A DNA stretch of 61,332 nt from an uncultured Clostridia bacterium (GTDB lineage: Bacteria; Bacillota; Clostridia; Christensenellales; UBA3700): the NCBI GenBank assembly GCA_944380395.1, contig CALWHM010000008.1, positions 1 to 61,332 on the forward strand. The letters are read 5' to 3'. The notes beneath the pieces are model-generated. The model ran no database searches. It saw only the letters and a program-made list of their open reading frames with translations, and had not been told where the DNA came from. Shown piece by piece: positions 7,820 through 45,697 of the stretch. The position numbers were made by a program, and so were the translations under genes. Each line of letters opens with the position of its first letter. The first letter of the stretch is position 1.

Positions 7820-8347
7820 TTACTGATAGTTGTAAACGGTGTTTATAACTATGGCAAAGTTATTATCACTGCCCGAATAGGTGTAAGATATGTCCACCGA
7901 GAGCGGGCGCATATTCACGGTATCTATGCTAGCGGTGAGCGTTCCGCCGCTGTACATAAGATTCTCCGTGCCAAGGAAGGCGTTCAGGTTGGTTATCTCT
8001 CCCGTAAGGGAAGCGGTTTCCTCCTGAGCGGTCAGATCAAGTCCCGTAAAGTTAGCCGTGTTGTAATCAAAAGAGCTTGTGCCGTTCATATCGGGGACAA
8101 AGCTGGATATCACGCCCTGAATTTCAGCAGGCACGTCCGCTTTTTCGGGGTAGGAATAGACGACCTGATTGGAGCTGTCAGTTACGGTGACCGTTACGTC
8201 CGCAACGGCAACGCCCGTAGAGGACCCGGACAGGACGGCGAGCGCCTCCTGCGGGGTCATTTCCTCCGTGCACGCCGCCGCAAACACGGCGACGGTGCAC
8301 AGCACAAGTGCAACGGCTATAACTATTACTGCTTTTTTCTTAGTCAT
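7820..8347 (-). CDS. Small lipoprotein of the giant surface operon
   Basis: Exported and lipid-anchored: an N-terminal MTKKK precedes a hydrophobic helix ending in the lipobox AAAC (Cys26). The remaining 150 residues have no family I recognise. They are rich in Thr, Ser, Asn and alternating hydrophobic residues (ASIDTVNMRPLSVDISYTY), pointing to a beta-sheet fold. The ATG at 8347 is chosen because AAGGAGG stands 9 nt upstream; the in-frame ATG at 8356 directly abuts that site and cannot use it. 175 residues. The start overlaps the last 8 bp of the upstream giant gene, so translation is probably coupled. Position and coupling suggest it works with the two giant proteins, perhaps as an assembly or anchoring factor, which is inference only. 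Confidence 0.8.
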   Translation of the reverse strand: MTKKKAVIVIAVALVLCTVAVFAAACTEEMTPQEALAVLSGSSTGVAVADVTVTVTDSSNQVVYSYPEKADVPAEIQGVISSFVPDMNGTSSFDYNTANFTGLDLTAQEETASLTGEITNLNAFLGTENLMYSGGTLTASIDTVNMRPLSVDISYTYSGSDNNFAIVINTVYNYQ

Positions 8348-11300
8348 TGAGGTCATCCTCCTTACTCTTCCTTTTGCGTGCCGCGGCGAAGATAAGTCCT
8401 ATGCCGAGCACAGGCAGGGACACGCCGCCCGCCACCAAACCTGCCGTGGCGGCAGTGCTTGCGCCGCTGCCCTTACCTGCCGCTTTTTCAGCGGCACCTA
8501 CGGCGGAGTCAACTGCGGCTTGCAGATCCTGCACGTACTTGGCGCGCGCTTCTTCCACGGCGGCGAGAGCTTCATCTATCTCATCGCCCCTTGCAGCCAA
8601 GTCGCCGCTGCTGACCATAGCCACATTCTGCAACAGCTGAGCATATCTTGCAAAGCCGGTGGCATTGAAGTTTCTTGCGAGCGATTCGGCGCTTTCGATG
8701 ATGTCGTCAACGCTGGCGGTAGTGGTGCCTCTGAGCGTTACGTCGGTCAACGGATATTCGTGCACATCGTCCTTAGCGTAATTGCTGTCATTTATCCTGA
8801 GGCGGATAATGAAGTCGCTTGCCGCGCTCAAGCCGCTTATGGTGTTGGCGCCCTTGACGGCTGGCCACCAAGTGGTGCCGTCCAGCGAGTATTCGTAAAC
8901 GGAAGGCTCACCGTTGATGTTGAAGCTGACGGAGCTGCTGTTCACGGCGGTGACGGTGGCAGTTACGCCCTTGGCAGCCGCTTCGACGTCCGCTTCATTC
9001 ACGACCACTTTGCTGTTATCGCCGCTGGCTTTCTTGCTTATCTCACCTTTGGCTTTAATGGTATTGTAGTCGCAGGTGAAGACGAGATGCAAGTTGTAGT
9101 CGCCCGCATTCACGCCGCCCAGACCCGTGAAAGTCATGGTGAAGACTCCGTCTTGGATTTCCTTCTTGGTTATCTTCAGTGAGCCGGGCGTACCGAGCTG
9201 AGCCACGATATTATTGTTTGCGTCGACTATCTTGGCAACGGAATCGGCGTCAAACGTGATGACGAGTTCTCCGTCAAAATCGGTACCGCCGAGCGAGTTG
9301 ATAGCCATCTTGACGGTGAGGGAATCGTCGCCGTAAGTGATGGCGTCGGGCGCCTCAGCTATGCCGACGGAAGCGCCGATGCTGTATGTGCGCTCGATGG
9401 TGCCGGAGTAGTTGCCCTTACCGTTGATTTTGAAGGTATAGGTGCCGGTGTATTTACCCGCTCCGTTCACAAACTCGATTTCAAAGTCCTCACCCATAAC
9501 AAGGTTGACCCTGTTGTAAGCGATGACCACGCCCAAATCTTCCGCGCTCACCGCAACGGCTTGATTGTTTTCCGTGCGGTAGTCGAACACTGCCTTGTGC
9601 GGCGCAATGCGTATATTCTTATCCGTAAGGTCGCGGGCGTTTATGGTGTAGTCGGTAGCGGTTGCTTCTATCACCGTAGCGGAGAGGTTCGCGTTGTTCA
9701 CCTCCGCTTTTATCGTGTAGATGCCCGCGTCACGGAATTTGCCGCTGATCGCGTCAACGTCCGCCGTTCCGTTAGTCACATCGTAAGTGAACGCAAGCGC
9801 ACCATCTTTGTACACGTTGACTTTGAAGTTAGTCATATCGATGGTATGCGGCTTGCCGGTGAAGTCGGTCACCGTGACGGTGAAGGACAGGTTGGGCACG
9901 ATGTCCGTTCCGTTATATGTGCGTTCGATCTGACCCTTAACCGTCTTTTTCACCTCAAACTCGGCGGTAGGCTTTATTTGCAGCGTGTACGTCTTTGCAC
10001 CGTCTGCCAAGTCGTGGGTGTCCCTGGTGAAATCCACGGTCATAGTGTAAGTGCCGGCGTACATAACGCTTGTTACGGGTTTGCCGCTTTCATCTTTGAA
10101 GGACACGCTCACATAGTTTGTGATGGAGTCGCCCGCGTAGTTCCTGTCGGGGACAAGTTCTATCGAAGTGCCGGGCGCGGCTATGCTGCCCTTCAATGTG
10201 CCCGCATCGCTTGCCAGCTTGTAAGGCGTGACCACAAGGAAGTTTTTGATGAAGGAAGCGTTGATATCCGTACCGTCAAATTCGCGGGTGAATATTGCGT
10301 TATCCACATCGTAAGTGAACAACTCCCTCTTGTCCGCAATCGTTTCAAGAACGGTGATAAATTCGGACGGGCTGATGGTCACGTTGATGTCCAAGGACGT
10401 CCTGTCAACGGTTTCTCCATTCTCGTTCAGTTCGGTAGTGCTACCTGCGGAGTCTATAAAGACATAGTTGGAGGCAAGCTGGGTGAGAGCGAAGTGAACG
10501 TTGTACTCACCGGGAGCCGCAAGGTTGCCGCTTGCGCCGTCCGATTCCGTAATGCCGCCCACCTTGCTGAACACGGTAGCAGTTTCATATTTGCCGTAAG
10601 GCTTAAGTGTGCCGTCTGCACCCCTGCGGTAGCTGGTGATGTACACGCGGTTATTGTAGTCGAAGTTGGCGCCGGTGTACATAGTGGCGTATTCATACCA
10701 GCCGGTGTGATCGCCCGTGCCATTATCTACCTTGTCGGTATAGGTAAATTCGTACTCGCCGTCTTTATTCTCATCTACCACATAGGTCAGCCTATCGAAG
10801 GAGATTTTGAGGATAGCCTTTTCTATCACCATATTCACCTTTACGGTGAGGGTGTTATCCTCGCCCAAGCCGGACGTGACCTTATAGTTTTCGGTGTTGT
10901 TAAGGGCTATCTTCACCTCTGCGGAGTAGCTGCCCGCAGTGGAGACCGCATCCTGAACGAAGCCGCCGCTTGCGGATATATCGAAGATACCGTAAGTGCC
11001 GAGTCCTTGCCCGTTCACGCTTATTGCGCTGTCGGCATTTGCGGCTCCGGTGCCGGTCACGTCAAGACCCTTCTCGCCGCTATAAGTGAGCTTCAAAGGT
11101 CCGAACGCGCTGCCGTTATACACCCTTTCAAAGGTGTAGCCTTGCTCTGTGAGAGGCTGAGGAGCGACTTGGTCCGCGTCGGTTTCAAGGGATACGGACA
11201 CTTTGCTTATGTCAAATTCGACTTCCTTAGGCGTGACCTCCACATCTACAAAGATGTTATCGTTGTAGCTGAGCACGAAGTTCTTGCTTTCAAATTCGTC

Positions 11301-21497: not shown

Positions 21498-21533
21498 AAT
21501 TTATTCCTCCAAATACCTTTCCTTTATCCTTAC

Positions 21534-21560
21534 GCATACGGCGCGGCGTGCGCCGTATGC
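21534..21560 (-). other. Intercistronic 11-bp hairpin between the two giant genes
   Basis: GCATACGGCGC (21534-21544) pairs perfectly with 21550-21560 around a 5-nt loop. It lies in the 83-bp gap between the giant genes. The minus strand after it reads GTAAGGATAAAGG, with no T-tract, so it is more likely an RNA processing or stability element than a terminator. Confidence 0.65.
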
Positions 21561-21580
21561 GATTTGCCTGTTATTTTTGC

Positions 21581-30500: not shown

Positions 30501-33500
30501 ACGATGTAACTTCCGGAGCTTCCGCCGTCGAAGTTGATTTGATCGCTTGTGAAGTAAGCAAGTCCGTCACTTCTCACTTCGCCTTCCACATATATACTGT
30601 CGTCGGCATTGGTGAGCACTGCGGTATAGGAAGTTGCGCCCGCAACGGGTGCGAAGGAGTATGCCAGCGTGTTCTGCTTAGTTTCGGCGTTGTCGGCAGA
30701 TTTGCTCTTCTCAAACTTCACGGAAGTGGAGGCAGCCGTTTGAGCGGTAAATTCGCCGTCGCCTTTCAAAGGCGCCCAATTGAGCATACCGGTAAGGGAG
30801 AGCGTAAGGTCTTGATCCCTCTTCATAGCTGCGTTGAGGGCGAGATCCAAGCCGTTGAGCACGCCCGCCACGGTGGATACGGTGGCGTTGCCGGAGAGCA
30901 CGCTGCTGAGCAAGGTAGCCACGGCGCTGAATGCCGCGCTCACGGTTATCTGCTCACTGCTCACGCCCAGCACGACCGCGTCAAGTGCGGTGAAGTCGTC
31001 CGAATCGGGAGCAAGGTTGACCTGCGCCACGCTTCCGCCCTGCGCCGTCTGCGCTTCGGCAGGCTTGTAGGAAACGGTCTTGGTCACCGCAAGGGCGTTG
31101 TCCGCGTAAGCACGCACGGTCACATCGTATGCATTGCCCGCAAACGCCGCAGGTACGGCAACTTCAATGGTGCCCTTTCCTCCGGAAACTTGCACGGTTT
31201 CACTGCTCTCACCCGCGCTGAATACGACTTCGTACTTTTCGTACATAGCGGTGGAGCCTTTCACGGTGACGGTCTTAGCCTCCGCGGAAACGCTGAGCGC
31301 ACCGCTGAGTGCGGAGATGTCTATGCCGTTTATCATCTCGTCCAGCATACCGTCCACCAAGTCAAACAACTTAATGTCCACGGTGTACGCGGGGAGCGTG
31401 ATGCCGGCTATCTTAAAGTTGGTGAGGTCGAGCAGCGCCTTGCCGTTATTGTAGTACAAGCCGAGCAGCGTGCCCGCATTTATCACGTTGTTTTCGTCAA
31501 TGCGCAAGCCGTCCGTGTCAAGGGTGAGGGCTACGCGCATATCCTCATCGGAAGTGCCGTATTCAATGAGCAGCTGCAGCCTTACGTTGAGCATAAACGG
31601 CTCGGTAATTTCCCAATCCAGGGAAGTCACTTCATCCAAGCCTTCCAAGCCGACGCCCGCCGTGGTGAGAATTTCAGCCACGAGCGCGCCCATATCGTAT
31701 CTGCCTTCCGCAATGTATATCGCAAGTTCGGCTTCCAGCCTGAAGCCGTCCAGAATCTGCTTGACGGAGGAAAGCATACCCGTGTTGTCAAGCAGGTCTA
31801 TCACCTGAATGTTTTGAGCAAGCGTGTAAACGCCGTCTTCCACCGTGTATACGTCCTTGAGAGCCTGCTCCACGCCCGCGGCGCCGTTGCTGCTCAATTG
31901 CAGTCCGCCGGTAAGGCTGACGGTGTTCACATCATATTCCGCGGTGACCCTGAGCGGCAGTTCGCCTTTCAAAGCCTTTTCAAGGTTGGTGGTTTTGGCG
32001 CCTTCCTCATTGCCGCGGTATTCTTCGTTAAGCCAGCCAAATTTCGCAATGGTAATGGCAAGGCTCAGCTTATAACCGTTTTCTTCGGAAGGAAGCGTCC
32101 ATACGGCGCGCTTTTCTTCCTTATCGGAGCTGTTAAGCTCTATCACGCTGTCCGTTGCGATGTCGCCCGCCTTTTCGCGCAGTATGAAGTGGTAATTTTC
32201 CACATTCTCCGCCTGCTCCGCGGTGAGCTGCCATTCGTAATTCAACGTTGTGCCGTCATCGCTTACCTTAGGCTTTGCGGTGGATTCCGTAGCCACATAC
32301 TGCTCGGGATCGCCGTCGGAGAGGTTTATCTCTATGCCGGCGGAACCGTCGACTATATCAAGGCTGAGGTTGGCTTCCGCCCAGTCGAAGGACACGCCCA
32401 GCACGCCGCGCAGCAGCTTATCCACCATTACCGCGCGGGCGTCGACTTCTATCGCGCCGTTGCGGATCTTGACCATACCCAAAATGGTTTTGAGCAAGGA
32501 GTTGTTGGACGCGCTTGCGTACACGTCGTATCCGCCCAAAGTGCGAGGAGTGAACGTGTCGTTTGCACTGTTGTAGTTGCCTGCCCTTACCACGAACACA
32601 TAGTAGGACGGGAATTCCGCGCCGTTATACTTGGACGTGGCGTCCGCAAGCCAGCCGAGGTTGTTCAAAACTTCCGTTTTGACGGTTATGGAGGTGACGT
32701 TAGAAGGAATTATCAACACTCCTTCCTCATTCGACACATTTCCGTAGTCGCCCACCAAAGCGTCCGTAATGCGGTTGGTCTTGCTGTTATCGTAGCCGTT
32801 ATACAGCTGGATCAGATAATGGGAAGCGGCAGTGTAACGCGCCCAGGACAGCGTTGTGGTGTCTCCGTTATCTTTCACGGTCACGTATTGTCCGTCCGCC
32901 ACCGTGTTAAAGCCGTTTCCTGTCAGACCCGCTCCCGGCTTCGTATTCAGCTCGGGCGCGGCAAGGTTCTGCTTATCGGTGTCGCCGCTCTCGTCCTTAT
33001 CGAACGCTTCGTTCACAAGGTCGTAGAGCTTATCGACGATGGTGTCCAGATCAATGTCTATACCCCTTATCTGATCGATAAGGTTGTAGACTATATCATA
33101 GATAGTATCGGGCAATGCAGACTGCGTGATCGCGAATCTGCCCAAAGATATGCCGCCGAGGTCGATCACCACATCATAACCTTTCAGATATATTCCGATG
33201 AGTTTGAGGTCGTTGCCTGCGTCCTTGATCTCTATCGCCGCGGCGGAATCCGCACGGCTGTCGGGATCCACATTCAGATCAATGGAGAGTTCCACGTCAA
33301 GACCCGTCAAATCGAGGATTATCTCACTCAAATCGACGTCTATGCCCGTCTGGTCGAAGATGTAGCCGAGCACGCTTGCAAGGCTTATAACAGACTGCGA
33401 ATTTTCATCCAAAGCAAGGTTGAGGGACGCGCTGAGGTTGAGCACCTGATCGATTATGCCCTCTATCAGCATGCTGCCCGCGTCTGCGGCGCCCTTGGCT

Positions 33501-36500
33501 ATATCCTCGGCTTCGGTGCGCACCTCCGCCGCCCAAGCGGGAGTGCCGCCCAGCGCCACGTCGGAAATGCTCACCCAGCCTTCGGTTTTGGCGCCTTCGT
33601 AATACATATCGGGATCCAGCTCGCCCACAAAGTGCAGCTTCATCCAATCCTTGTTCTCATCGCGGCTGATGGTCAAATCTATGTTGGCGTCATAGTTGCC
33701 CAAGTCTGCTTTCATACCGAACAGGTTGAGGAACGCTTCCACGGCGGTGAAGGACACGATGGCAACGATGTCGTTTTGCGTGACGCCGATGAACATTGCC
33801 TCATTTTCACTGAGTATCCAATTGCCGTGTTCGTCCTTTTCAGCCAAATTCGCGGTGGACACATCGCCTTCCGTACCTTCGGAGCCTTCCGTGCCTTCGG
33901 AGCCTTCCGTGCCTTCGCCGGAGCCTTCGTCCTCAGTCGCCTTATGGTCGCCGAAAATTACGGAATCCGTGTTGTCAAGCGCCTTTGAGAGCACCTCGTC
34001 CACAAATGTAGCTATATCAAAGTTGCTTGAATGATACTTGGGCATTGTCATACCCAGCAGGGTTATATCGGACATGTCAACGTAAAGGTTGCTGCCGTCT
34101 ATTATCACGGTGAGGAAGTCGGTATCCTTTTCAAACAGAACTTTGTTTTGTATGGTTCCGTCCGCATTCTGCTCCGTGCCCATTATCATATCCTGATTGA
34201 AGGATACCTTTATCATACCCAGCGAATTTTCGGGTTTTTCAGCGTCCAGGGACAGGCGGAGCGAAAGCTTAAGTCCGAGTTGCATACCGCCCTGCGGCGC
34301 GTCAACGCTGTCGTCTTTATAAAGCGGTTCGAATATGAGGTCGAGACCGTTGGCGTCGGTAAGACCGCCATCGACAATACCGAAGTTGTTGAGCAGGTCG
34401 CCTATACCGAACACACCGCCGGGCAGGGATATGTTCACGTTCAGATCGAGCGAGATGTTGCCGAGCAAGCCCATCAGGCTGTCCGCAAGCGTAGCGCCGT
34501 TGCTCAAATCTATTTCCGTATACTTGTCTTTCTTTGTGATTTCCTCTATCTTGTCGGCTATCTGCGCGTCGCGGCTGATATCCAGCGTGGCATTCAAGGT
34601 GTACACATTCTCGGGCTTGGTGCCGGACTCACCTTCCGCAAACGCGCCCGTGCCCACTTTTACGTCAAGGTCGAGCGTGCCGTCCACAAGCAGCAGGCTG
34701 CCTTCCGCTTCCACAAAGTCTATTGCGTATCCGAACAGCGCTTTCGTCAGCTCTTTGAGCATTCCGGTATGCGCGTTGAGCGCCACGCTCAGGTTTTTGA
34801 GTCCGACCATCTTAATGAGGTGGCTCACCAAGGCGCCGGTAGTCAGTTCGTTCACGGTGAGAGAAGGAGCGGTGCTGACTTCTTCCACGCTCTTCTGAAT
34901 GGGCGAATATTTTATATCTATAAGTTCGCCCAAATCCGCATTGATGCCGGAGAGCAGCTTGTTCAGCTCCGTATCTATCAGATCGGCTATTGCGGAATTG
35001 GTGACTTTTATCACTTCGCCGCCCAGCGCGCCGTTCCTTATGGAGGTCAGATCCACATAGATCTCGCCCGCAACAAGGTAGACGCCCGCAACGGTTTCCC
35101 AATCTACGCCGCCCGAAGACATTTCTATGCCGATGTATACGCTGACTTGGGACAGATTCGAGCTTTCGCCGTTCAGCATAAGGTTGAGCCTGTACTCCAT
35201 ACCCTCTGAAGTATCAAGGTTGAACGCCAATTCGGGATCTATTCCTTCCTCCATACCCAACATTTTGAGCAGTCCGTTGAGCGCATAGTTGAGGTTGAAG
35301 GACTTGCCTTCACTGTTCGCGCCCAATTCAAAGGAATCGCCTTTGCTGCTGTTCGCGCCCAATTCAAGCGTGAGCTGGCTGGTCAGCACGTTGTCCATAA
35401 CTTCGGCAATAAGGTCGCCGGTGCTGTCCTTAAACCTATCGGCAACGCTGCCTTCGCCTTCCGCGCCCCTTGCGTAGGTTATCAGCTTGTTGTGCATATC
35501 GTTGGTATCTTCACCGTTATCGTCGGTATCTTCACCGTTGCGCTCTTTGAATGCCGCAGACAAGGTGAGCTCCGCTTCCAGACCCACTCCGGAAGGAGGT
35601 TTCTTCGTGTTGTTCAATTGCAGCTGCAGCTGACCACCTGCGTCGCCCGTTGCGGTGGTGAGAACTATCTCCCAAGGCAGCTTCGTATTGAGCTCGGTGA
35701 GGTCGATTATCGAAGTATCCTTCAATATCTTTGTGATGGCGGAAAGAGCCACGCTCAAAGTGATGTCTTTGCCCATTTCAAGCTGCGCGTTCTGCAGCTG
35801 CTCGCCGTTTGCCAAAGCCATTGCCGCGGCAAGACTCTTAGTTTCGGGCTTGGTCAAATCGTCCACTTTTTGCAGCAGATCCGATATACCTTTCTGCGCG
35901 ATACCCGCAACTTCTTCGATATACTTCATCACCTCGAAGGTGCCCACCTTGAGTACGGGCATCTTTATATCGAGCAGATTGAGTGCGCTCAAATCGATGT
36001 AAAGGCTTCCGCCGTAGATGGCGATGTAAATGCCGTCATCTTTGGCAAGCAGCGGCGTATTATTTTCAGCGCCGCCGAGCACGAGCGGCGTGTTTGCCAT
36101 AAGCCCCAGCACTATGGTGCTCTTTTCCACGTCTATAGCACTGCCGTCTTCGGTCAGCACAATATCGGAAGCAAGAGAGAGTTCAAGCTCTATATCAGTA
36201 GCGTCTATCTCCCAATTCACGCCGTTATTCTGGATGGCTTCCAGCGCGTCTATCACCTGCTGGTTATCCAAAACGAGCACGCTGTCCAGAATGGGTCCGA
36301 GCAGATCCCAAAGATTGGTATTGCCGCCGACCGCCGTCACGTTCAGTTTAAGGCTTACGTCAAGGGCGTTGAGCAGATTTGCCACGCTTTCGTTCATATT
36401 GTCAAGATTTATCTGAACGCTTTTAAGTTTTTGCAAATGTTCGGCAAGCTCTTCTGCGGCTATCGCGTCCGTCTTGGTGATGCCCAAGCCGAGAGTAAGT

Positions 36501-39500
36501 TTGAGCATGCCGTCGGTCGAGCCTTCCCCGCCCTGTTCGGAATCGTAAATGGTAGCCTTTATTTCAGCCTTGCCCGCAAAGATGTCAAGATATCCGCTTG
36601 CCTCTGCGTTCAGGCTCATAGATACCGCGTCCACAAGGGAGAGCAGTTCGTTTATTATGTTCTTGGTAACTTCCAGCTTGATTCTGGCGTTCTCCACGCT
36701 GACCATGGTGATTATAGCCCTGACTATTTCAGCCGTTTCGGGTGCGGCGTCATCTGCGGTGCATTCATCGGCAAGGGATTGCCCTGCCACAGCCTTACCG
36801 TAAGGATAAGTACCGCCTTCGGCTATCTTATTCAAAATTCCCGCAAGGTCGATGTCTATGCCGCCGACAAGCGAGCCGAGATATCCGGTGAGCTTATCCA
36901 GCACATCGGAAGCTTCCACTTGAACGGCGCCCATACCTATGCCGGAAAGATCCAGCCACAATTTGCCGCCGTACACATATATGCCTATCAGCGTGGTAGT
37001 CTTGTCGGTAGGCTTCTCGGGAGTAGTCTTGTCGACAGTCACATAATTCAGCTTGAGGCTGACCATATTCAAGGCGACATTGTCGTCCTTCATAGCGCCG
37101 TCAAGGGCGAGCTTAAGTTCGATTCTGACGGGTTCGCCGTTTTGCTGGGCAACGAGTTCAAGCGCGGTATCGCCCAGGTTGATGATGCTGCCGACCATCT
37201 GCTTGGCAACGCCCAGCAGGTCAAAGCCCTGTTTCTCAGCCGCGTCTGCGGTGAGGCTGAGCGTTACGGTGGAAGTGAGCACTTCATCGAGTATGCCGGC
37301 TATCAGCTTGGTGGGATAAGTGTTGCCCTCGGCAATCTGCACCTTGCCGTACTGTGCGGCGATATAGTCGGATATGCTCATTTCACCCGAATCGCCGGTT
37401 ACGGTGCCGCCGATACCTATACCCGCATTGAGCGCAAGGCTTATATCCATGCCGCCGAATGCGCCCGCCGCTTTCACCCACAGCACTTTGTCGGCTACGG
37501 GGGTTACGGTTCCGTCTTCGGGAGTGCCTACGCCCACGGTTACCTTAAAGTCCATAGAAGAAACGTTTGCGGGGATATCCGCATCCGCGACAAGCGAAAG
37601 CAGGCTGAATATGGTCTGCGAGGTGATGACGAGCTGCAGCTTGGAAGAATCTATCGTCAGATAGTTGTCGTAAGTAAGCCCGGTCGTTGCCAAAGACTGC
37701 GCCGCCACCTCGGGCACGGTGAACACTATGCTCTCGCCCGACTTGGTCGCGGTGAGTTTGAGGCAGTCGTATCTGTTGCCCTTGGTGTCCTTTGCGTAGA
37801 CTGCTATATAATCGCCCTCTGCCGCCGCTACGGAATAAGTGCCCTTCGCGGTATGAGTGGTGGTGGGTTCATCATAGGTCACGGTTGCGCCGGGTATTGG
37901 GGTTTCACCGTCCTTCGTGCCGTAGACAACGTCGAATTTCATATCGTTGCCGATATAGTCGAACGCTATTTCAAAGTCTACTTTATCCGCACCCACGGTC
38001 ACTTTGCTCTTTTCGGGCAGATAAAGCATACCGTTGCCGTCGTTATACATATTCGCAACGGTGCGTTCAAGCTGCACAAGGTAGCCTTCCACAAACTCGC
38101 CCATATTGAATTTGTCAACTTTATATACGGGGAGCGTTATTCCCAGAATGGTTATGGCGCTCAAATCCACGACCAGCGTGTTATTGCTGACCGCTATGGT
38201 TATCGCAGCGCCCTTCTTGATTATAAAGCCGTCGCCCGCTACCACATTGCCGTCGCCTTCGCCGCTGAGGGATACGCCATCGGGGAAGGATATCTGAACC
38301 ATAAAGCCGCTGTCGTTGATGTTCTCTTTGTTCAAAGCGGCGTATACGCCCAGATTCATCTTTATTTTCGTGGTGCCGGTGCTTGTGGTGCCGGTGTTGC
38401 CGATCGTCCAAATAAGCTCATCGCCCAAATATTCCAAAATGTTTTCGGGCAGGAAGGGTCCGATTATCTCAACCACGTTGTAGTCGCCGCGTTCAAGGCT
38501 TATCTCCAAAGCCGCCTCCACGGAAAGCCCGTCGGAGAGAATGGACGTAACGCTTTCCACAAGGTTGGCGCCGTAAAGCAGGCTTATCTCCTTGTATTCG
38601 CTCGTTTCTCCCGTCGTTTCTCCCGTGACTGTGGGCTTCTTCGACGTGTTGGACAGCGTGAGAGAGCCTTCAATATTGTATCCCGCGCCGTCGTCCATAG
38701 AAGCGTCCTCATATATGCCGATGGTGAGGTCTGCGCTGCCCTTGAAGAGGTCGAGATCGGTTATGCTCGCGTCCACAAGCGTGATGGTGCCGCCGCCCGT
38801 GAGGGAAGCGATGAGATCGGACAATATGTCGCGCGTCACGTTCAGGGAGATGAGGTTGCCCTTTATGGAGAGCGCGGAGAGCAGCATAGTTACGGTATCC
38901 ATTATATCTCCGGAAGCGGAAGAGGATACGGAACCGGTTGCTATCACCTCGCCGTCCTTATCGTAAGTTTGGATGGCTATGGTGTAATTGGTGTAACCGT
39001 TGCCCCACATAATGTTGGAGTACACTTTGTCATTTGCGGACACGGTGGACTGCCACAACAGGCCGTTGGAATCGGACATAGTGACCACGTATCTTACCGC
39101 GCCGGGCACGGACTGCCAAGTAGCGGTGTTGGTGGCTTCACTCAAAGATATTTCCATGCCCGCAATGCTCACCTGACCCTGAACGGGAGAGATATTCGTG
39201 TAAGCGTCCGTACCGTTCACGCGAATGGTGAAAGGTCCCGTCTTGCCCGTAAGGTCTACGGTAGCGGTATAAGTGAATGTGGAGGCGTTATAAGCCGCGC
39301 CCGCAAGGTCGGATACCGCAGTACCCGCCGCGTCCACGAGCGTATAAGTTTCCGCCGCACCGAAAGGATCTTTTGCCTGCCACGTGAAGGTGACCGCGTT
39401 TATCGTCTGATAGTTGGCGGTTGCTTGCATAGGCGCATATGCGTCGGGTTCAGCCAAAGCGTCGAACATCGTCTGTTCGGTAGTGCTGACCTGACCGCTG

Positions 39501-42500
39501 ACGGCGTTCAGTTTGGTATATACCTGTATGAAGTAGGAGTCTGCGGCGGTCACGTCTGCGGTGTATACGCCGGTAGCTTCGTCGAAGGTGAAACCGGAAG
39601 CGTCCGCCGCGCCCGTATCGAACAGCAAGGTACGCTCTTCTTCATTTATACTATATACCTTATAATATACGCTGCTTGCCGCGCCGTACTTGTTCCATAT
39701 CAGTTTGACTTTGTCTTGGACCGTGTAAGCCCTGAAATTCAGATTGCCGGAGAAGTCAACCAATCCGCCCAGCAGGTTGCCCAAAGACAAGTCTTCAGAA
39801 AGACCGGCAAGCAGATCCATAAGCATAGTGTACAGACCGGAATCGGTAACGACATACTTTCCGAGTCCGAAGTAGCTAAGGTTGATATAGAGGTCGTCTT
39901 GTTCGTTAAGCAATATCTCCGCAATAACTTGGTCTGCGTAAGTTATGCCCAGCTTTATTATTTGAGTTGCCGTGCCGTTATCCTTCCACAGCTCTATTTT
40001 AAGGGCTATGGTTGCCTCGTCGGTGCCTATGCCCAAATCTATGGAACTAAGCAGCGCCTTTATGTCCGCGCTCACATTGGGGATAAGACCGATGACTTCG
40101 CCGATAAGCCCGGCTATGCCCGTATTCGCGTCGGGCAGAGTTACGGAAAGTTCCAGCGTGCTGTTGAACAGCTGATCGAGCAATCCGTCAAGAAGCGCGT
40201 CGTCGGCGTCCTCCCAACCGGAAGTTTCAAGATTTTTTTCTATCTTCGTCTTGATATCGACCTTAACGTCTCCGCCTATCTGCCAATCGTTTGCAAGGTC
40301 AAGACCCAGCGTGATTGCCAAGCCGGAGCTTCCGCCCGCTTCGGGAGTGAGGATGTCGCCCGTAACGCTTGCGCTGAGCGCGCCGTTGTTTTCAAGCTTG
40401 ACATCTATAACGGCTTCGCCTTGCAGAAACTGACTTGCGTCAAAGTCCACGTTTAATCCGAGCGCGGAGAGCAAACCGAGCACGCCCGAAAGCGTAGCCG
40501 TGGCTTGCAGCAAGTTGTTCTTTGCCGTTATCTGTATTAGATCATTATTGGACGCGCGCGTGGAGGAGGTCACAATACCGTCTTCATCCGCAAGATTTGC
40601 CAACGCAGCCTGCTCCTGAGGCGCAAGGCTGTTTATAACGCCGCTGAGGTCTATGGCAAGATCGTTATCGGGGATCGCCGCAAGCAGCGAAGCGATGAGT
40701 TCCGCCATATTAAAGTCGTCCGGAGTTATCTTGTATACGGGCAGTTTGATTCCCAATACCGTGAGATTGGATACGTCGAGTATCACATTGTTCTCATACA
40801 GATATACGCCGAGCACCACGCCAGCCTTGATTATGGGATCGCCTTCGCTGCTGAGCGTAAAGTCGTTATCCGCCTCAAGTTCAAGGTACATAGCCGACTT
40901 TTCATAATCCGTTTCGTCAATGTAAAGACCTGCGTTAAGCGAAAGGTTGAGATCCACGTTTTTCTCCACCTCTATCTTCAAATCGCCCAAATCGAGTCCG
41001 AATACGGACAGCAGGTCGCCCAGATTGTAAGTGCCGTTGTTGAACTTGACCCCCAAACCTATGCTGCCCTTCAAGCCCGCCGAAAGCGTGCCCGCGACAA
41101 GTTCGTTCAGATTGGAAGTGTATTGCGACTTATCGCCCAACACGTCGTCCACATATTTGCTGAACGTTTTATCATCCTTTTTTATGGGCATGAGCAAATC
41201 GAGAGTATCGAACGTGATACCCAGTTCCAAGCCTTTGAGCGCAAGACCCACGGATATATCCCTCAATCCGTCGCTGCCGGAGGCGAAGGATATGGTGCCC
41301 GTGCCGAAATCGGGGATCTGTATTGCGGAAGTATCCACGCCGAATCCGCCTATCGCGGTGAGCACGTTGTCTATAAGCGCCTTATCTATTATAATGTTCA
41401 GACTGTCGTAATCTTCCCCTTCCGTGATGTTCACCCAATTGGAAGCGTTCTCTATTTTCAGAACTTGGAAGATGGTGATAAACAGGTTTGCCAGATCCTG
41501 GCTGATGTACACGTTGCCGTCCTGCGCCATCGCAAGTCCCACAACCGCGCCGTCCGCCTTGGACAAGTCTGTTTCGCCCGTTATCATTCCGTGGTCCGTG
41601 CCGAAAAATTCGTCAAGGAAATCCACAGCCACATTCTTGATCTTGCCGATGAGAGAAGGCAGGTCAAACGGTATGGCAAAGCCCTTTCCGTTCCACACGG
41701 AAGAAGAGCCTGTCAGTCCTTCAACTATCTGACCTATATTCACATATAAATAACCTTCTTTATAATATACGCCCGCAATTACCTTATCGTTGTTCTTGGT
41801 GTCCTTTATCTCGATCGCAATGACGTTTTCGTCCTTGATCTCGCCCGAACCCTTTTCATCCTTGGAATAAGGCTTTTGAGCGATATCCAAATCTATCGCA
41901 ACATCCAGCCTGTATGCCAGATCCGCTTTCAGCATAAGTACGCCTTCGGGCAGCGTGCCGGGCACAAACGTGTTGATAAGTGAAGCTATGTCCACCTGAC
42001 CGTTCACGCCGCTCAAAGTGTCAAGCGTGACGCCCGCGGAAAGCTGAATATGTCCGAAGCTGAGAATATTCGAATAATTCTGCACCTTGGAAGGAATAAG
42101 GGACAGCGCTTCTTCATTCCTGTCGGTGCGCACTATCGTGCCGCCTTTCAGGTCATAGGAAACTTCACCCGTTTCGTTGTTCACAAAAGAGGAGTTGATG
42201 GATATAAGGTTGCCTGAACTGTCCATTGTACCCGAGAAGGTAAAGGTGCTGTCCGGGATAACATCGCCCAAATATGAGAACAGAGGGTTCAAATCTACAT
42301 TTTTAAGCGCATCGCCTATCATACCCACAAGCTCTCCTAAATCCACAAGCGCGATGGGATTAAAACTCATAGAGTAAATGGTGTTACCGTTGCCGTCGGG
42401 GGTAATACTGCCGGTAGCTTTCAGCGCCATGTTGAATATCACATTGAATATGTCAAGGCCGCCTACCAAGCCGTTTATGGTATCGGGAAGCACGGAGGGG

Positions 42501-43228
42501 ACTTTTTCTATCAGGGCAAGAAGATAGTCTGCGTTAAAGTCCTCCAACAGATAGACGGAGCCTGTTTCACCTGTAAGGTCGTCCGGATTCGTGTCCACGT
42601 AAAGTCCACCGGGCACGCCGTATTCGTCGGTTATGTACAGACCCAAAATACCTTTGTCTTCCGTTTCGTTACGAATGACAAGACCAAGGTCGTAGTCATA
42701 CTCGCCTTGGTTTATGATGCCCCTCTTAACATTGGAAGCGAACTGTATCGAATAGTCTATACTGCCGCCGGAGCCGTCCGGTACGGTCAGTGTTGTGGTG
42801 TATTCGCTATGTAGGTTATCGCCTTTGGTCAACCCGCTGAAAATAGCGTTCAGTATGTCAACCGCTCCGGTGCCGCCGCTCGTATTGCTCTCCCACTGCG
42901 CGGTCAGCGTTATCGTTGAACCGGGACGCGCCGTAAGCGGGACAGAATACTTTTGAGTCAGCGGGATAACCGCGTTGTTGGATCCCGTCCACTGCGTGAG
43001 CGTATACCCTTCGCGAGTGGGCGCGTATGAAGAAAGATCCAACGGATCGCCGGGCTGCATATTGCCTATTTCAAGCGTAGTGCCGCCGCCGGTAAAGGTA
43101 CCGCCGTTAGCGTCAAGTACGACCTTGACGGGTTCATCGGCGCAGGCGGAAAGAAGCATTCCGCATGCCGTGACCGCGAGTACCGCTATCATCAGAATAA
43201 TCAGAAGTTTGTTTTTAGACTTGCCCAT
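21581..43228 (-). CDS. Giant (7215-residue) modular lipoprotein with InlB-type domain and at least 13 internal modules
   Basis: A lipobox (LSAC, Cys29; an earlier VTAC is possible) follows a basic hydrophobic leader, so it should be a lipid-anchored exported protein. Residues 33-110 form an InlB B-repeat/Listeria-Bacteroides domain (LDANGGT, REGYTLTQW, LTAQW). From about 300 to 5800 a large unrecognised module recurs. Its hallmark is a strand-turn like LYIDLSxLxLLGIKLPVYKV, seen near residues 488, 812, 1117, 1695, 2090, 2407, 2720, 3048, 3352, 3931, 4418, 4862 and 5715. Companion motifs are of the type LNVTxxIIxxLL and GxYDxxxLL. FN3-like W-(x)-V-x-GAxxYxV segments lie between modules, for example near 1373, 4526, 5189 and 5490. 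The last 1,200 residues follow a Ser/Gly/Thr linker and include Ig-like beta segments. No C-terminal anchor. The ATG at 43228 has GAGGGG about 7 nt upstream. No stop or frameshift interrupts 21.6 kb. Role unknown. Confidence 0.9.
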   Translation of the reverse strand: MGKSKNKLLIILMIAVLAVTACGMLLSACADEPVKVVLDANGGTFTGGGTTLEIGNMQPGDPLDLSSYAPTREGYTLTQWTGSNNAVIPLTQKYSVPLTARPGSTITLTAQWESNTSGGTGAVDILNAIFSGLTKGDNLHSEYTTTLTVPDGSGGSIDYSIQFASNVKRGIINQGEYDYDLGLVIRNETEDKGILGLYITDEYGVPGGLYVDTNPDDLTGETGSVYLLEDFNADYLLALIEKVPSVLPDTINGLVGGLDIFNVIFNMALKATGSITPDGNGNTIYSMSFNPIALVDLGELVGMIGDALKNVDLNPLFSYLGDVIPDSTFTFSGTMDSSGNLISINSSFVNNETGEVSYDLKGGTIVRTDRNEEALSLIPSKVQNYSNILSFGHIQLSAGVTLDTLSGVNGQVDIASLINTFVPGTLPEGVLMLKADLAYRLDVAIDLDIAQKPYSKDEKGSGEIKDENVIAIEIKDTKNNDKVIAGVYYKEGYLYVNIGQIVEGLTGSSSVWNGKGFAIPFDLPSLIGKIKNVAVDFLDEFFGTDHGMITGETDLSKADGAVVGLAMAQDGNVYISQDLANLFITIFQVLKIENASNWVNITEGEDYDSLNIIIDKALIDNVLTAIGGFGVDTSAIQIPDFGTGTISFASGSDGLRDISVGLALKGLELGITFDTLDLLMPIKKDDKTFSKYVDDVLGDKSQYTSNLNELVAGTLSAGLKGSIGLGVKFNNGTYNLGDLLSVFGLDLGDLKIEVEKNVDLNLSLNAGLYIDETDYEKSAMYLELEADNDFTLSSEGDPIIKAGVVLGVYLYENNVILDVSNLTVLGIKLPVYKITPDDFNMAELIASLLAAIPDNDLAIDLSGVINSLAPQEQAALANLADEDGIVTSSTRASNNDLIQITAKNNLLQATATLSGVLGLLSALGLNVDFDASQFLQGEAVIDVKLENNGALSASVTGDILTPEAGGSSGLAITLGLDLANDWQIGGDVKVDIKTKIEKNLETSGWEDADDALLDGLLDQLFNSTLELSVTLPDANTGIAGLIGEVIGLIPNVSADIKALLSSIDLGIGTDEATIALKIELWKDNGTATQIIKLGITYADQVIAEILLNEQDDLYINLSYFGLGKYVVTDSGLYTMLMDLLAGLSEDLSLGNLLGGLVDFSGNLNFRAYTVQDKVKLIWNKYGAASSVYYKVYSINEEERTLLFDTGAADASGFTFDEATGVYTADVTAADSYFIQVYTKLNAVSGQVSTTEQTMFDALAEPDAYAPMQATANYQTINAVTFTWQAKDPFGAAETYTLVDAAGTAVSDLAGAAYNASTFTYTATVDLTGKTGPFTIRVNGTDAYTNISPVQGQVSIAGMEISLSEATNTATWQSVPGAVRYVVTMSDSNGLLWQSTVSANDKVYSNIMWGNGYTNYTIAIQTYDKDGEVIATGSVSSSASGDIMDTVTMLLSALSIKGNLISLNVTRDILSDLIASLTGGGTITLVDASITDLDLFKGSADLTIGIYEDASMDDGAGYNIEGSLTLSNTSKKPTVTGETTGETSEYKEISLLYGANLVESVTSILSDGLSVEAALEISLERGDYNVVEIIGPFLPENILEYLGDELIWTIGNTGTTSTGTTKIKMNLGVYAALNKENINDSGFMVQISFPDGVSLSGEGDGNVVAGDGFIIKKGAAITIAVSNNTLVVDLSAITILGITLPVYKVDKFNMGEFVEGYLVQLERTVANMYNDGNGMLYLPEKSKVTVGADKVDFEIAFDYIGNDMKFDVVYGTKDGETPIPGATVTYDEPTTTHTAKGTYSVAAAEGDYIAVYAKDTKGNRYDCLKLTATKSGESIVFTVPEVAAQSLATTGLTYDNYLTIDSSKLQLVITSQTIFSLLSLVADADIPANVSSMDFKVTVGVGTPEDGTVTPVADKVLWVKAAGAFGGMDISLALNAGIGIGGTVTGDSGEMSISDYIAAQYGKVQIAEGNTYPTKLIAGILDEVLTSTVTLSLTADAAEKQGFDLLGVAKQMVGSIINLGDTALELVAQQNGEPVRIELKLALDGAMKDDNVALNMVSLKLNYVTVDKTTPEKPTDKTTTLIGIYVYGGKLWLDLSGIGMGAVQVEASDVLDKLTGYLGSLVGGIDIDLAGILNKIAEGGTYPYGKAVAGQSLADECTADDAAPETAEIVRAIITMVSVENARIKLEVTKNIINELLSLVDAVSMSLNAEASGYLDIFAGKAEIKATIYDSEQGGEGSTDGMLKLTLGLGITKTDAIAAEELAEHLQKLKSVQINLDNMNESVANLLNALDVSLKLNVTAVGGNTNLWDLLGPILDSVLVLDNQQVIDALEAIQNNGVNWEIDATDIELELSLASDIVLTEDGSAIDVEKSTIVLGLMANTPLVLGGAENNTPLLAKDDGIYIAIYGGSLYIDLSALNLLDIKMPVLKVGTFEVMKYIEEVAGIAQKGISDLLQKVDDLTKPETKSLAAAMALANGEQLQNAQLEMGKDITLSVALSAITKILKDTSIIDLTELNTKLPWEIVLTTATGDAGGQLQLQLNNTKKPPSGVGLEAELTLSAAFKERNGEDTDDNGEDTNDMHNKLITYARGAEGEGSVADRFKDSTGDLIAEVMDNVLTSQLTLELGANSSKGDSFELGANSEGKSFNLNYALNGLLKMLGMEEGIDPELAFNLDTSEGMEYRLNLMLNGESSNLSQVSVYIGIEMSSGGVDWETVAGVYLVAGEIYVDLTSIRNGALGGEVIKVTNSAIADLIDTELNKLLSGINADLGELIDIKYSPIQKSVEEVSTAPSLTVNELTTGALVSHLIKMVGLKNLSVALNAHTGMLKELTKALFGYAIDFVEAEGSLLLVDGTLDLDVKVGTGAFAEGESGTKPENVYTLNATLDISRDAQIADKIEEITKKDKYTEIDLSNGATLADSLMGLLGNISLDLNVNISLPGGVFGIGDLLNNFGIVDGGLTDANGLDLIFEPLYKDDSVDAPQGGMQLGLKLSLRLSLDAEKPENSLGMIKVSFNQDMIMGTEQNADGTIQNKVLFEKDTDFLTVIIDGSNLYVDMSDITLLGMTMPKYHSSNFDIATFVDEVLSKALDNTDSVIFGDHKATEDEGSGEGTEGSEGTEGSEGTEGDVSTANLAEKDEHGNWILSENEAMFIGVTQNDIVAIVSFTAVEAFLNLFGMKADLGNYDANIDLTISRDENKDWMKLHFVGELDPDMYYEGAKTEGWVSISDVALGGTPAWAAEVRTEAEDIAKGAADAGSMLIEGIIDQVLNLSASLNLALDENSQSVISLASVLGYIFDQTGIDVDLSEIILDLTGLDVELSIDLNVDPDSRADSAAAIEIKDAGNDLKLIGIYLKGYDVVIDLGGISLGRFAITQSALPDTIYDIVYNLIDQIRGIDIDLDTIVDKLYDLVNEAFDKDESGDTDKQNLAAPELNTKPGAGLTGNGFNTVADGQYVTVKDNGDTTTLSWARYTAASHYLIQLYNGYDNSKTNRITDALVGDYGNVSNEEGVLIIPSNVTSITVKTEVLNNLGWLADATSKYNGAEFPSYYVFVVRAGNYNSANDTFTPRTLGGYDVYASASNNSLLKTILGMVKIRNGAIEVDARAVMVDKLLRGVLGVSFDWAEANLSLDIVDGSAGIEINLSDGDPEQYVATESTAKPKVSDDGTTLNYEWQLTAEQAENVENYHFILREKAGDIATDSVIELNSSDKEEKRAVWTLPSEENGYKLSLAITIAKFGWLNEEYRGNEEGAKTTNLEKALKGELPLRVTAEYDVNTVSLTGGLQLSSNGAAGVEQALKDVYTVEDGVYTLAQNIQVIDLLDNTGMLSSVKQILDGFRLEAELAIYIAEGRYDMGALVAEILTTAGVGLEGLDEVTSLDWEITEPFMLNVRLQLLIEYGTSDEDMRVALTLDTDGLRIDENNVINAGTLLGLYYNNGKALLDLTNFKIAGITLPAYTVDIKLFDLVDGMLDEMINGIDISALSGALSVSAEAKTVTVKGSTAMYEKYEVVFSAGESSETVQVSGGKGTIEVAVPAAFAGNAYDVTVRAYADNALAVTKTVSYKPAEAQTAQGGSVAQVNLAPDSDDFTALDAVVLGVSSEQITVSAAFSAVATLLSSVLSGNATVSTVAGVLNGLDLALNAAMKRDQDLTLSLTGMLNWAPLKGDGEFTAQTAASTSVKFEKSKSADNAETKQNTLAYSFAPVAGATSYTAVLTNADDSIYVEGEVRSDGLAYFTSDQINFDGGSSGSYIVTVTGNIESPVNMQLSLGTAQLLGADKDEIKGELEGMLGEGGSVNFAERVEQYGSLLITGLVDTLLNTRISLSIDLSLIEKQLEEAELAVGGTISLSDIVLAIAGDIAVSAGITLDDILGSVDVVFDMDVTTIILDIGMNIDLENPEETDLMVQLKSDINGVQDVLLGLYVYNNLLTIDLRALGLRAYTLENFDYIVNLQKMLKDMLFGSDATGDEGLLGQYDINISEMIDGLLNPEEDPAPPVVDAPANEELPDGEQTETLPAFTVTAKNNADNGTTTLSWGAVEGADHYAIVFTDINGEEFKVTAGEDDNELETSNIADTSVTYNMVPGVYNVKVEAHMSDHTPVATGSRQMNGAIASVLSAVSMQNTVIKLNVTPQIINNLLAVVAPSISINAEPINVSASLDIFNGDASADVDINLKYEQPVGDVMFRLGANLSIKTAEALYENPDGLGYVGSIKDALDELGTDVDVINFGTNVTDDAGVDAARIAYAILDALNTTTISATMNVSFDKGTYDLGAMLSGMGIEALDGVSLLWTFNEDQNIGLTIELGMYVDTAGLSGIGSYGTWFYLDIIAATNIKLGEVINGAASDGPYTINAGETILSIFGKEKDANSVGTIYIDLSRLNILGLNLPVISANYKFTDMLTNEFFDIICSIMDLNSYLEADYAVTFEGDVPSKLTFNWTEVTLGNSSASPEVFYDVTVVGTTSGGLSSTIYSNTIQEESVSFNYGDIEMFEQFSVTVVSYFTSNGARRVLAENTTVIDMTSSNELETASYITPDDVYAENTELARVEGVTWTWMDEGVATVNWQPYEGALYYLVSFRRASDGATLTQTCDFVVEGGKNSYTTSSETPLFFGAKGEFEAMFGKNKVHPMVGASGYDYGYIVEVYAYTDEALEELEQVTVDTLQKKYAPAAVGAANSFSAMNIWFAPVANEYGGATSTFHVGWSAVEGAANYSVMPYRVISSVIDGTTYETVGLTAQGGNSLNNTNLMLGKSNLSFTYYNDTYTREYYVELVAYDEYGNMIAQGQMTAGLGKLYDTDKTLLPVSTIALVLDSERFGLEVQLNAIVAILEGVGVELPIDLRGFDVEAALGLDTTIEASVGSSNIVLESDDVDGFKLTGLSDGSYTLTMTYTNSGGVQTVSNMAFTLDGGNYTVTSGNYTIDANGYVNYGMRRNGTYDIQLAGPVTAKALFTVSRTINMGITGNVMVPVSGGEDNFSMTIHGAGGEDDTAYTVGVTEDGRTLFWQPVAGAATYTVNVVLEQNGAVAAEETFEGLTSFVQKVDFTSAGKYTVTVTAFNAAGEQVGNPQQSIVTVTGDSGLNISISVPYDGLAIGAADDDQEDGRDALISKIEDKINRIDSGNNFKTVRDLVQHYLSDFQVTLSLGIDSFTTEINLQTIINSVLAAVGVDTQIGAPIYINTDNLDGMGVQLNVSWHIDWNSPMNSYASIELVYTNGDSVSNVMLGVYLQNNIVCADLTGVGLIGIKISSQSLYSFITNAITDAVDGLFDGLDMGEGLDFSTAIQMLLGEYPVINLKTISAGTAATGASTVSAMALADETAAADDGEAKAETAAAGGMDMTTIITGLLNAIQLNSTNVFVSATTAILDAVTSSLLGIKLGIDVDFELQVPLLKGDITADLRLDNITFEAVLSIKAMEQPAEPGVDGKTFATLDTEGSGAEAVMALLSNLPLNLTVELANATMDSAAYSGVTTNSDWLGHATYPAGTRIGIEVVQGTKTFNGNTYDLLNSFTADAGDIVVTIATTNEAEQNSTGTGHLQYLIVVHIDTSAGQIAVKLCERAIVLQAWAALGIVAEIDLGGGVSVLGGISINIDAIPLSINIALDLASTLGDVFDSLFSTINGLGSSSSTGSTGGNTSSGTGETVDPYNLKYSSVGGGENDGIVQRNPYEVHFNAIMDETTGAEAYDRYIVTVSRADGSIVDRQTVQANGSARYTKQMEKNYYESYNITVTGENDATGFAKALEGIDIWKLLGGGEVQGRYENGEFVATDIGNDLIVTTTGGIYLNLNSTGEMNLTVKFDPYEMNKAVDAIFGSIFGANSALDLTTVSLGGSSTFGINYLQFMWWDRAGLSYRRLSGEPQGGKNGPGDVSGSGGSYEDAHDTKAATDPTSTLDSLESQLRGLLADLLDQMNISVNTAGVSVSGGALRNRSDSLVWARWDDQQWGATPILMSIFMKFVPISIWTSAELNVNMTNGVLTNISFRGQDTGDAVLRFNGEKNEVYVYYAQTLYGPKTGGSNRYGDNGYGMQSNWTYNYFGYQIGENVDMSRYDDSLAPATLNIPYKWTNSDASARTDVAYPVYTYAIPYGSVDSDSEYYFQEVPVLGGTGSDASSGATGYGGRNPAADSNNVLYRRGGYDVNGVLKHNNAYTTVNNRNSQSFTLNSYTRLEIYNTSKEVNAGTAGIGSSSDGIISWGNLPNRIVFDQYKMGWNDTAADYLIDNYFGNSYTARWQKGTSFARANVSFTLDGAALQGGPNGNLAKKLGNYDSFTIRATANFGGSIGSKFIDITIEKLDIKNDGDNNHNGNDEYADIDDWTLYYYDELPEYIIMTTKNNERKRYKVTRAGTADARSGNYDAIISNYQTDSAGFAQSDVVTATLTFKNQKEVPLTINYLDSTLVDPTVTVDMNTLQDEYPADGGEMIMAADKIKTAIESLIVHYADGSVLTNSTNIRWGGAEELSDSTMITGSRYINDRDPANSEGQKSITLATWLERFSSSDGGRNNLEGDTFYINIEVSIDADLLSGPAPADFKQSLTVAVNIPTKKPESISVHGSAADTVVLNPYDYYLYLVTGSDENNPLPSAVDVTYENGVTESVSVIWTDESGENIIASRDFVTEWYTVPTVATFTLENDETRYSFRWEDYKMTAQINSGAISTMQFLVDGQWRDGVPAGMKETTARVTFTSGYVLELPTVIRESTNGYGYAYIGYNVEMYNLTGALVEYEGCHLKQAKRIRIDSSAGV
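33866..33919 (-). repeat. 18-bp tandem repeat encoding SEGTEG
   Basis: Three tandem 18-bp units (33866-33883, 33884-33901, 33902-33919) inside the giant lipoprotein gene encode a Ser-Glu-Gly-Thr-Glu-Gly linker. Units one and two differ at one base. It is a likely site of length variation between strains. Confidence 0.85.
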
Positions 43229-43272
43229 AATTTACCCCTCTGAAATGTTGCCTATAATTTAAGCACATACTT

Positions 43273-43301: not shown

Positions 43302-43346
43302 AAATACCTGCGAAAGTAATGTAAAGTTGCAGCCGAAAAAATACTT

Positions 43347-44987: not shown

Positions 44988-45025
44988 TCAAAAACATCTT
45001 TTTTTTCAATCTGTTTAATCGACTT

Positions 45026-45697
45026 TTACGCGTTCTCGTTCCAGATGTATCCTACGTTTTTGATGGTTTGCAGATACTTATCGGCATGATAGTTCTTCAA
45101 TATCTTTCTCAAATTGGATACGTATACTTCCGTTACGGAGAGCACGGTGTTGCAGTCTTCGCCCCAAACATAGTTGTAAAGCTGTTCTTTGTTTACCACG
45201 ATGTTGCGGTTGCGGATAAAGTATTCCATTATGTCGTACATCTTGCCGGAGAGCTTCACATATTTGCCGTCTACGGTGAACATCTTGGTCTTTATATCCA
45301 GCTTCATATTCTTCAATTCGTAAACGCTGTTCTTGAACAGATTGTTGGCTCTGCGCAGCACGGCTTCCACTCTGGCTTTCATCTCTCTTGCGTTGATGGG
45401 AGCGTGCAGATATTCGTCCGCGCCGAGTTCCAATATGTCGGCAGCCAGCTCCGAGTTGTCCATATCACTCATTATGACAAGCGGCACGTTGCTGCGCTTC
45501 CTGAGCTGAGTGATAAATTCTATGCAATTTACTTTATTCAGCTTTATATCTGTCACGACCAAATCGTACACATTGGACGACGCCCTGAAAAGCGCATCTT
45601 CTCCGTCCTCACTTATAAAGCATTCGCCTACGTCTTTCATTACGGATATCATCTTATCGCATGATTCCGAGCCACCTTTGCAAATTAAAATTTTCAT
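45026..45697 (-). CDS. Orphan OmpR-family regulator with degenerate receiver domain
   Basis: 223 residues with a receiver-like domain (1-115) and a C-terminal winged helix with the usual VSNLRKIL and IKNVGYIW segments. The expected phosphoacceptor Asp50 (DLVVTD) is kept and Ser77 is in place. However, the acidic pair expected near residues 8-10 is absent (ICKGGSES), and the conserved Lys before Pro is Ala99 (YLHAPIN). Such atypical receivers often work without phosphorylation. No kinase gene is adjacent. The start ATG at 45697 has AGGGTGA upstream. Own promoter and terminator. It is the nearest regulator upstream of the giant operon, so a control role there is possible but not shown. Confidence 0.88.
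   Translation of the reverse strand: MKILICKGGSESCDKMISVMKDVGECFISEDGEDALFRASSNVYDLVVTDIKLNKVNCIEFITQLRKRSNVPLVIMSDMDNSELAADILELGADEYLHAPINAREMKARVEAVLRRANNLFKNSVYELKNMKLDIKTKMFTVDGKYVKLSGKMYDIMEYFIRNRNIVVNKEQLYNYVWGEDCNTVLSVTEVYVSNLRKILKNYHADKYLQTIKNVGYIWNENA

Follow-up and report, generated by a model that had tools for sequence, protein, structure and literature searches.

The locus lies within a stretch of 61,332 nucleotides, hereafter the window, from the forward strand of contig CALWHM010000008.1 of an uncultured Clostridia bacterium (GenBank assembly GCA_944380395.1). The nearest named relative of the source genome is Candidatus Alloclostridium intestinigallinarum, a chicken MAG placed in Clostridia incertae sedis. 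Three consecutive genes, designated A, B, and C, form a putative operon that takes up about 2% of the source assembly. The genes and the elements belonging to them are the following.

21581..43228, minus strand: gene A, a giant lipoprotein of 7215 amino acids (open reading frame, LSAC lipobox, orthologs)
8340..21497, minus strand: gene B, a giant of 4385 amino acids (open reading frame, hydrophobic N-terminus, C-terminal transmembrane segment)
8382..8438, minus strand: transmembrane segment at the C-terminus of B (residues 4354-4372), with a basic tail behind it (sequence reading)
8357..8363, minus strand: Shine-Dalgarno sequence AAGGAGG of C, located within the end of B
7820..8347, minus strand: gene C, a lipoprotein of 175 amino acids (the frame is open from 8356, corresponding to 178 amino acids)

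The first-pass annotation, made from the sequence alone, had described three same-strand frames of 7215, 4385, and 175 residues, a gap of 83 bp between A and B, an overlap of 8 bp between B and C, and an export signal on each gene, all of which are recovered here. The length of 175 amino acids for C follows from the best-placed start, the ATG at 8347, with AAGGAGG nine bases upstream. This motif is kept in all six genomes of the genus that were compared, the window included and G006, where B and C are fused, set aside; the upstream ATG at 8356 is missing in three of the six. As read by eye and without a predictor, the lipobox of A is LSAC (Cys29) and that of C is AAAC (Cys26), while B begins with a hydrophobic segment at residues 8-26. 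The LSAC lipobox is found in all five complete A proteins of the genus, at residue 29 or 30 (the orthologs of A comprise 7108, 7113, 7367, and 7246 amino acids), and Cys26 of C is present in at least 90% of 13 homolog rows. A and C thus combine the features of bacterial lipoproteins, namely a lipobox cysteine after a signal peptide and an LspA gene in the genome, the latter detected by a search of the source assembly. Sortase PF04203 was not found in that assembly, which is 88% complete; 3 of 14 control genomes gave a match.

At the edge of the window, positions 1-162 contain tandem repeats of 27 bp (15 protein letters not shown) within a Lys/Ala/Glu-rich ORF. Near the operon, a BspA-type leucine-rich-repeat protein with a lipobox-like signal is encoded at 50620-51651 on the minus strand, and G002 and G005 have ORFs in the corresponding location that resemble it by eye.

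Two further elements concern the expression of the giant genes.

45026..45697, minus strand: OmpR-type response regulator upstream of A, with a degenerate receiver (sequence reading)
21533..21561, minus strand: G+C-rich stem-loop without a T run in the A-B gap (stem kept in congeners)

The earlier statement that only one candidate promoter is present does not hold, since a pattern scan returned several promoter-like sites. On the minus strand, five of these are located between the regulator and A and 13 inside B, with none in the A-B gap; the scan covered these three regions. Counted on both strands, the totals of 13 and 26 sites stand against 7.6 ± 3.2 and 14.3 ± 4.2 in shuffled sequences, a modest excess. 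The A-B gap measures 70-84 bp in four genomes of the genus, and its stem is common to the window and three congeners with one pair changed on both sides; the gap of G006 differs and is 223 bp long. This stem-loop may tune mRNA stability between the giants. Stems are also seen between B1 and B2 in some other genera. Rfam gave no match in the window.

The OmpR-type regulator is found upstream of A in the source genome (G000), G002, and G005 and, in most other genomes read, at the main copy; it is absent from the stretches of G003, G006, G010, and the type with an A of 3.4 kaa. The receiver in G000 and G005 has lost the acidic pair and the lysine of the KP motif. In the window the changes are IEDN to CKGG and KP to AP, and the regulator encoded here is possibly phosphorylation-independent. 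The start of the G002 regulator reads like those of G000 and G005, and the G007 regulator also deviates. In many other genomes an ORF of 414-445 amino acids lies between the regulator and A; the window has no such ORF. The 1.8 kb at 43229-45025 are devoid of a convincing gene and include short repeats, among them a 33-bp tandem repeat (43528-43591).

The order of the three genes is conserved in related genomes. A-B-C is complete and surrounded by the same flanking genes in G002, G003, G005, and G006, B and C being one frame in the last of these. G004 retains the 3' end of A together with B and C, and G001 a truncated B and C, after which the contigs end. An A region is present in 45 of 47 genomes of the family (E ≤ 1e-10) and C in 38 of 47 (E ≤ 1e-5); the two genomes without an A match are G001, whose contig ends inside B, and G023. 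After 21 second matches within the same proteins had been removed by hand from 94 rows, 73 A places remained, 38 of which, in 33 genomes, are followed by a same-strand C at a distance of up to 60 kb, compared with about two links expected from random placement by rough arithmetic. The 35 A places without C downstream include contig ends, the 3.4-kaa type, and others.

Smaller versions of the arrangement, in which a shorter A' is followed by B1, B2, and C, occur in genera g2, g3, g4 (with B2 and C fused), and g6, while g5 has A-B without C. In those read, A' comprises 1.8-3.4 kaa and is followed by one or two B proteins of about 1.3-3.1 kaa. C is absent from both g5 stretches read and from the 3.4-kaa type, which has A-B only (G024, G017). 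One g5 locus (G015:C7:1273-3474) has two small lipoprotein-like ORFs of 345 and 343 amino acids in the place of C after A-B; the C model gave no match to either. Altogether, the A-B order recurs in six genera, in five of them with C, and in paralogous copies. Eight genomes of other genera have A-B gaps of 11-21 bp, and A and B overlap in G017:C2. Since BLAST (E ≤ 1e-6) finds similarity between the window B and only one of 17 other B-type ORFs outside the genus (that of G017), B is there a counterpart mainly by position.

The first-pass annotation had proposed a search of related genomes for conserved order and had named scattered, unlinked genes as the outcome that would speak against its idea of a dedicated surface assembly; such scattering was not encountered. 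The part of this idea that sees one conserved unit stands, while the argument from a single promoter finds no support. Conserved order, the downstream linkage of C, the occurrence of C in a single frame with the preceding giant, and short A-B gaps argue for a unit and against unrelated neighbours. As judged from gene order and sequence, A, B, and C form a single surface system that is inherited together and keeps its order, and the proteins may also assemble physically. In none of the stretches read are A and B fused, so contact between these two would be deduced from gene order alone.

For B and C, the link is closer. An open frame of more than 1,900 amino acids encloses the match to C at 14 of the 38 linked places (13 in genus g4, plus G006). 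The mature-C HMM matches the C-terminal end of five fused proteins with E values of 2.9e-46 or better; the tails were read in G006 and G009, and for the other nine places the assignment is based on open-frame length only. Both tails run from the transmembrane segment of the giant through a short basic stretch and another hydrophobic segment, which ends in cysteine, to the C domain, an arrangement which would fit a two-helix hairpin leaving both domains outside. In G267, a linked g4 genome, C occupies a separate short frame. These open-frame fusions are the strongest evidence, on the level of sequence, that B and C would act together.

Distant A-like giants are not confined to the family. The family profile matches 49 of 397 genomes of the order (E ≤ 1e-5), 32 within the family and 17 outside, the latter matches being weak (E 3.9e-11 to 8.5e-6). 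In 11 of the 17 outside genomes, the match lies inside open frames of 7,290-10,300 amino acids, and seven of these 11 were inspected. G030 (C2:116228-161693) encodes a lipoprotein of 9117 amino acids followed after 136 bp by a protein of 5991 amino acids with a C-terminal transmembrane segment; G087 (C4:1728-51853) encodes a lipoprotein of 10277 amino acids followed after 107 bp by one of 6394 amino acids with a transmembrane segment near its end. By position, the second giants are putative counterparts of B. Each pair spans 45-50 kb and takes up more than 3% of a genome of about 1.4 Mb. In family f3, the stretches inspected show A-like giants of 8-9 kaa without a giant neighbour (G026:C3:168841-196365 and G532:C5:17056-40980), and in G162, G192, and G202 the contig ends on the downstream side of the A-like giant. 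C was not found in the stretches read from other families, which suggests that it is not essential to A-B. A TI-type profile, derived from the repeat modules of A, had no match in 397 other genomes drawn from the phylum.

A contains an array of modules, which is accompanied by two recognizable domain pieces.

25949..42091, minus strand: module array of A, T0 followed by six TI-TII pairs (13 modules), residues about 380-5760 (HMMs)
42881..43021, minus strand: Listeria-Bacteroides repeat TIGR02543 in A, residues 70-116 (21.7 bits, cut-off 20.95)
21998..22072, minus strand: Big_4-like Ig piece close to the C-terminal end of A (under the cut-off here, above it in the homolog of G012)

BLASTP self-searches of whole A and B were uninformative and fragments were used instead, with an internal similarity of about 21-38% identity in A. 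By iterated HMM searches, all five complete A proteins of the genus (7108-7367 amino acids) have 13 module cores, the 3.4-kaa type of G013 has seven, and shorter A proteins have three to four. A second model, seeded elsewhere, returns 13 modules in four of the five complete A proteins and 11 in that of G006. In a midpoint-rooted tree of 103 modules, the first module appears to stand apart, and the remaining ones appear to fall into two types that alternate along the protein. Among the 462 possible six-six splits of the 12 repeat modules of the window A, the alternating one is the best (2 of 924 labelings, with each split counted twice; identity 21.3% within and 18.0% between types). TI and TII are homologous by profile comparison (hhalign 98.7%).

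The order T0-(TI-TII)n was assessed in 25 A-type proteins, using type models trained on the order-assigned modules of 15 of them, the remaining 10 being unused in training. Five proteins have n = 6, three n = 3, and 13 n = 1; three more have n = 1 with a weak additional N-terminal match, and one, in G010, deviates as T0-TI-TI-TI-TI-TII. Within the genus, clades comprising exactly the five species are obtained for 10 of the 13 module positions. At positions 1 and 5 the pattern is broken by the divergent copy of G006, which groups elsewhere, and at position 7 by one outside module that clusters with the five. Such positional clades across the genus imply that module amplification predates its diversification, and no later gain or loss of modules is seen in the five complete A proteins. 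The ends of A align to the ends of A', the extra length of A being internal. Module order and phylogeny show in sequence terms that A has grown by multiplication of the TI-TII unit before the genus diversified, with the first module and the last pair staying fixed on either side. The pairwise pN/pS values against three congeners are 0.32-0.46 for A and 0.49-0.58 for B and stay below 1 in each of 12 segments; they are rough, given nearly saturated synonymous sites. Of the two giants, B is the faster-evolving one.

A second, smaller copy is also found in the source genome. Its A-type protein of 1820 amino acids has n = 1 (G000:C62:1834-7296), and another contig (G000:C29:1-3661) carries a B tail of at least 1058 amino acids and a C of 176 amino acids; the counterparts of the three genes are contiguous in G002:C12. 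The possibility that C is a single copy of an A module was considered and rejected (best E value of the mature-C HMM on A-type proteins 0.045; hhalign 0.1%), as was a relationship of C to designed armadillo repeats, where the PDB profile matches cover 27 residues in most rows and are regarded as spurious.

Known domains are scarce in the three proteins. No ligand-binding family reaches the cut-off in A, B, or C, and no S-layer or cell-wall-binding domain does so in A or B. The A modules have neither a convincing Pfam match nor a PDB sequence match, and by eye their array is interrupted by Fn3/Ig-like stretches. In the N-terminal part of B, GG[LV][VI]G motifs occur at residues 293, 347, and 396; they were not seen in G006, and no Pfam match supports a beta-solenoid in that region. 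The MBG match of the window B amounts to 17.6 bits, under the cut-off of 25; two positional counterparts of B have MBG domains above the cut-off (MBG_2, 1.8e-12; MBG_3, 9.1e-10).

AlphaFold models of A 120-1175 and A 1930-3090, calculated with five rows each, reached pLDDT values of 39.5 and 40.6. In these low-confidence models strands and helices alternate, and Foldseek matches obtained with them (TM to query below 0.1) are not usable. DUF6612 is grouped with the LolA/LppX-like lipid-binding lipoproteins, and a likeness of the A modules to it was not supported, at hhalign probabilities of 1.3% and 2.0%, in a weak test with eight rows that leaves room for a shared fold. The family models of LppX and LolA, likewise weak tests, had no match in the source genome at E ≤ 0.001; LppX matched one relative and LolA four, one of them above the cut-off, which is too few to align.

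A description of this giant-gene system was not found in the literature by searches that also named Christensenellales, with most subscription journals outside their scope. The closest parallel is given by Giant1-5 of Apilactobacillus kunkeei, which are consecutive extracellular proteins of 3,000-8,000 amino acids with repeats, encoded in a 1.5-Mb genome and hypothesised to be adhesins (PMC12863079). According to that source, Giant1-4 have a beta-solenoid N-terminus, Giant1-3 form alpha-helical rods, and the giants end in C-terminal DUF5776/SH3b-like domains and have no transmembrane domains (PMC12863079). A and B are likewise consecutive extracellular giants of more than 3,000 amino acids each. 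As to the beta-solenoid, B offers a weak GG[LV][VI]G motif pattern. In contrast, neither has a DUF5776/SH3b-like Pfam match, and B ends in a transmembrane segment. The repeat-domain family of A also differs from the repeats of the A. kunkeei giants, as far as the source describes them, and the present system comprises a lipid anchor on A, a transmembrane anchor on B, and a small lipoprotein that is fused to a giant in some relatives. A-B-C resembles the A. kunkeei cluster in outline and is not a member of it.

Two further comparisons concern B. With the LPXTG adhesins it shares the layout of a secreted stalk with a C-terminal hydrophobic segment and a basic tail, but the tail contains no LPXTG and PF04203 is missing from the assembly as searched. 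To stalk proteins of the MBG/Ig-like kind it has a possible link through the two positional counterparts with MBG_2 or MBG_3, the window B itself being below the cut-off; unlike these proteins, it has no sortase motif, is accompanied by no sortase gene that could be found, and is linked to two lipoproteins.

With somewhat better than even confidence, A-B-C is regarded as one envelope-tethered giant system that probably serves as a long-reach adhesive or tethering apparatus. Adhesion or tethering is the most likely function in view of the MBG domains in B counterparts, Big_4 in an A homolog, and the Listeria-Bacteroides repeat in A. According to this proposal, A would be secreted, lipidated at Cys29, and anchored to the outer face of the cell membrane, from where it would stand out as a rod of 13 modules with Ig-like domains toward the far end; its length would be set by the number of modules. 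B would be held by its C-terminal transmembrane segment and would carry its N-terminal domain far out on an MBG/Ig-like stalk, with C at its base. In the fusions, the transmembrane segment of B, the short basic loop, and the signal helix of C would make up a hairpin returning C to the outside, so that the topology would equal that of the separate genes. Together, the three proteins would reach toward mucus, neighbours, or particles.

Other explanations have been weighed against such an apparatus. A and B could coat the cell in the form of a sheath or a surface layer instead of acting as a specific adhesin; the share of the assembly invested in one operon, the near-universal occurrence in the family, and the fixed module number in the genus would agree with a structural coat, which is nevertheless unlikely given several differing copies in many genomes, the fast evolution of B, and the lack of S-layer or cell-wall-binding domains at cut-off. 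The idea of unrelated adhesins that merely share an operon, with their order due to chance or shared regulation, is disfavoured as very improbable: C is fused to the preceding giant in 14 places, frames overlap or nearly touch, the A-B order persists through six genera, five of which also have C, and recurs in paralogous copies, and pairs of an A-like protein and a second giant occur in two other families. These observations outweigh that A and B showed no family in common, that C is absent from the 3.4-kaa type and g5, and that B evolves faster than A.

A further alternative is an envelope transport machine, in which the A modules would bind or conduct hydrophobic molecules in the manner of a lipid bridge or of LolA-like cups in series, B being the scaffold and C the loading lipoprotein. 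The lipid anchor on A and the alternation of strands and helices in the low-confidence models are compatible with it, as is the conservation of A over its full length with a fixed module number in the genus, which many repeat adhesins lack. Against it are the DUF6612 profile comparison at 1-2% (within the limits of eight rows), the missing PDB sequence match, Foldseek matches of no use on poor models, and the Fn3/Ig-like stretches that break the array; moreover, a second membrane is not expected in Clostridia. Transport is thus judged very unlikely. An unlikely but wider-reaching variant of the proposed unit is an undescribed envelope machine of two rods that would occur across a whole order of gut Clostridia and consist of a giant lipoprotein of 2-10 kaa, built from a new family of repeat domains, and of an anchored second giant. 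Its reach would be set by counted TI-TII multiplication (n = 1, 3, 6), and its task would be other than simple adhesion, for instance the moving of hydrophobic cargo or the spacing of cells at a fixed distance.

For the biology of the family, the distribution shows that giant genes of this kind are no oddity of a single genome; in these uncultured, small-genome Clostridia they are near-universal and often present in several copies. With the T0-(TI-TII)n rule and the fusions found in nature, the vague notion of a "giant adhesin" resolves into testable parts, which are the single TI-TII pair, the B-C hairpin, and the relatives with n = 1, 3, and 6 for relating length to function.
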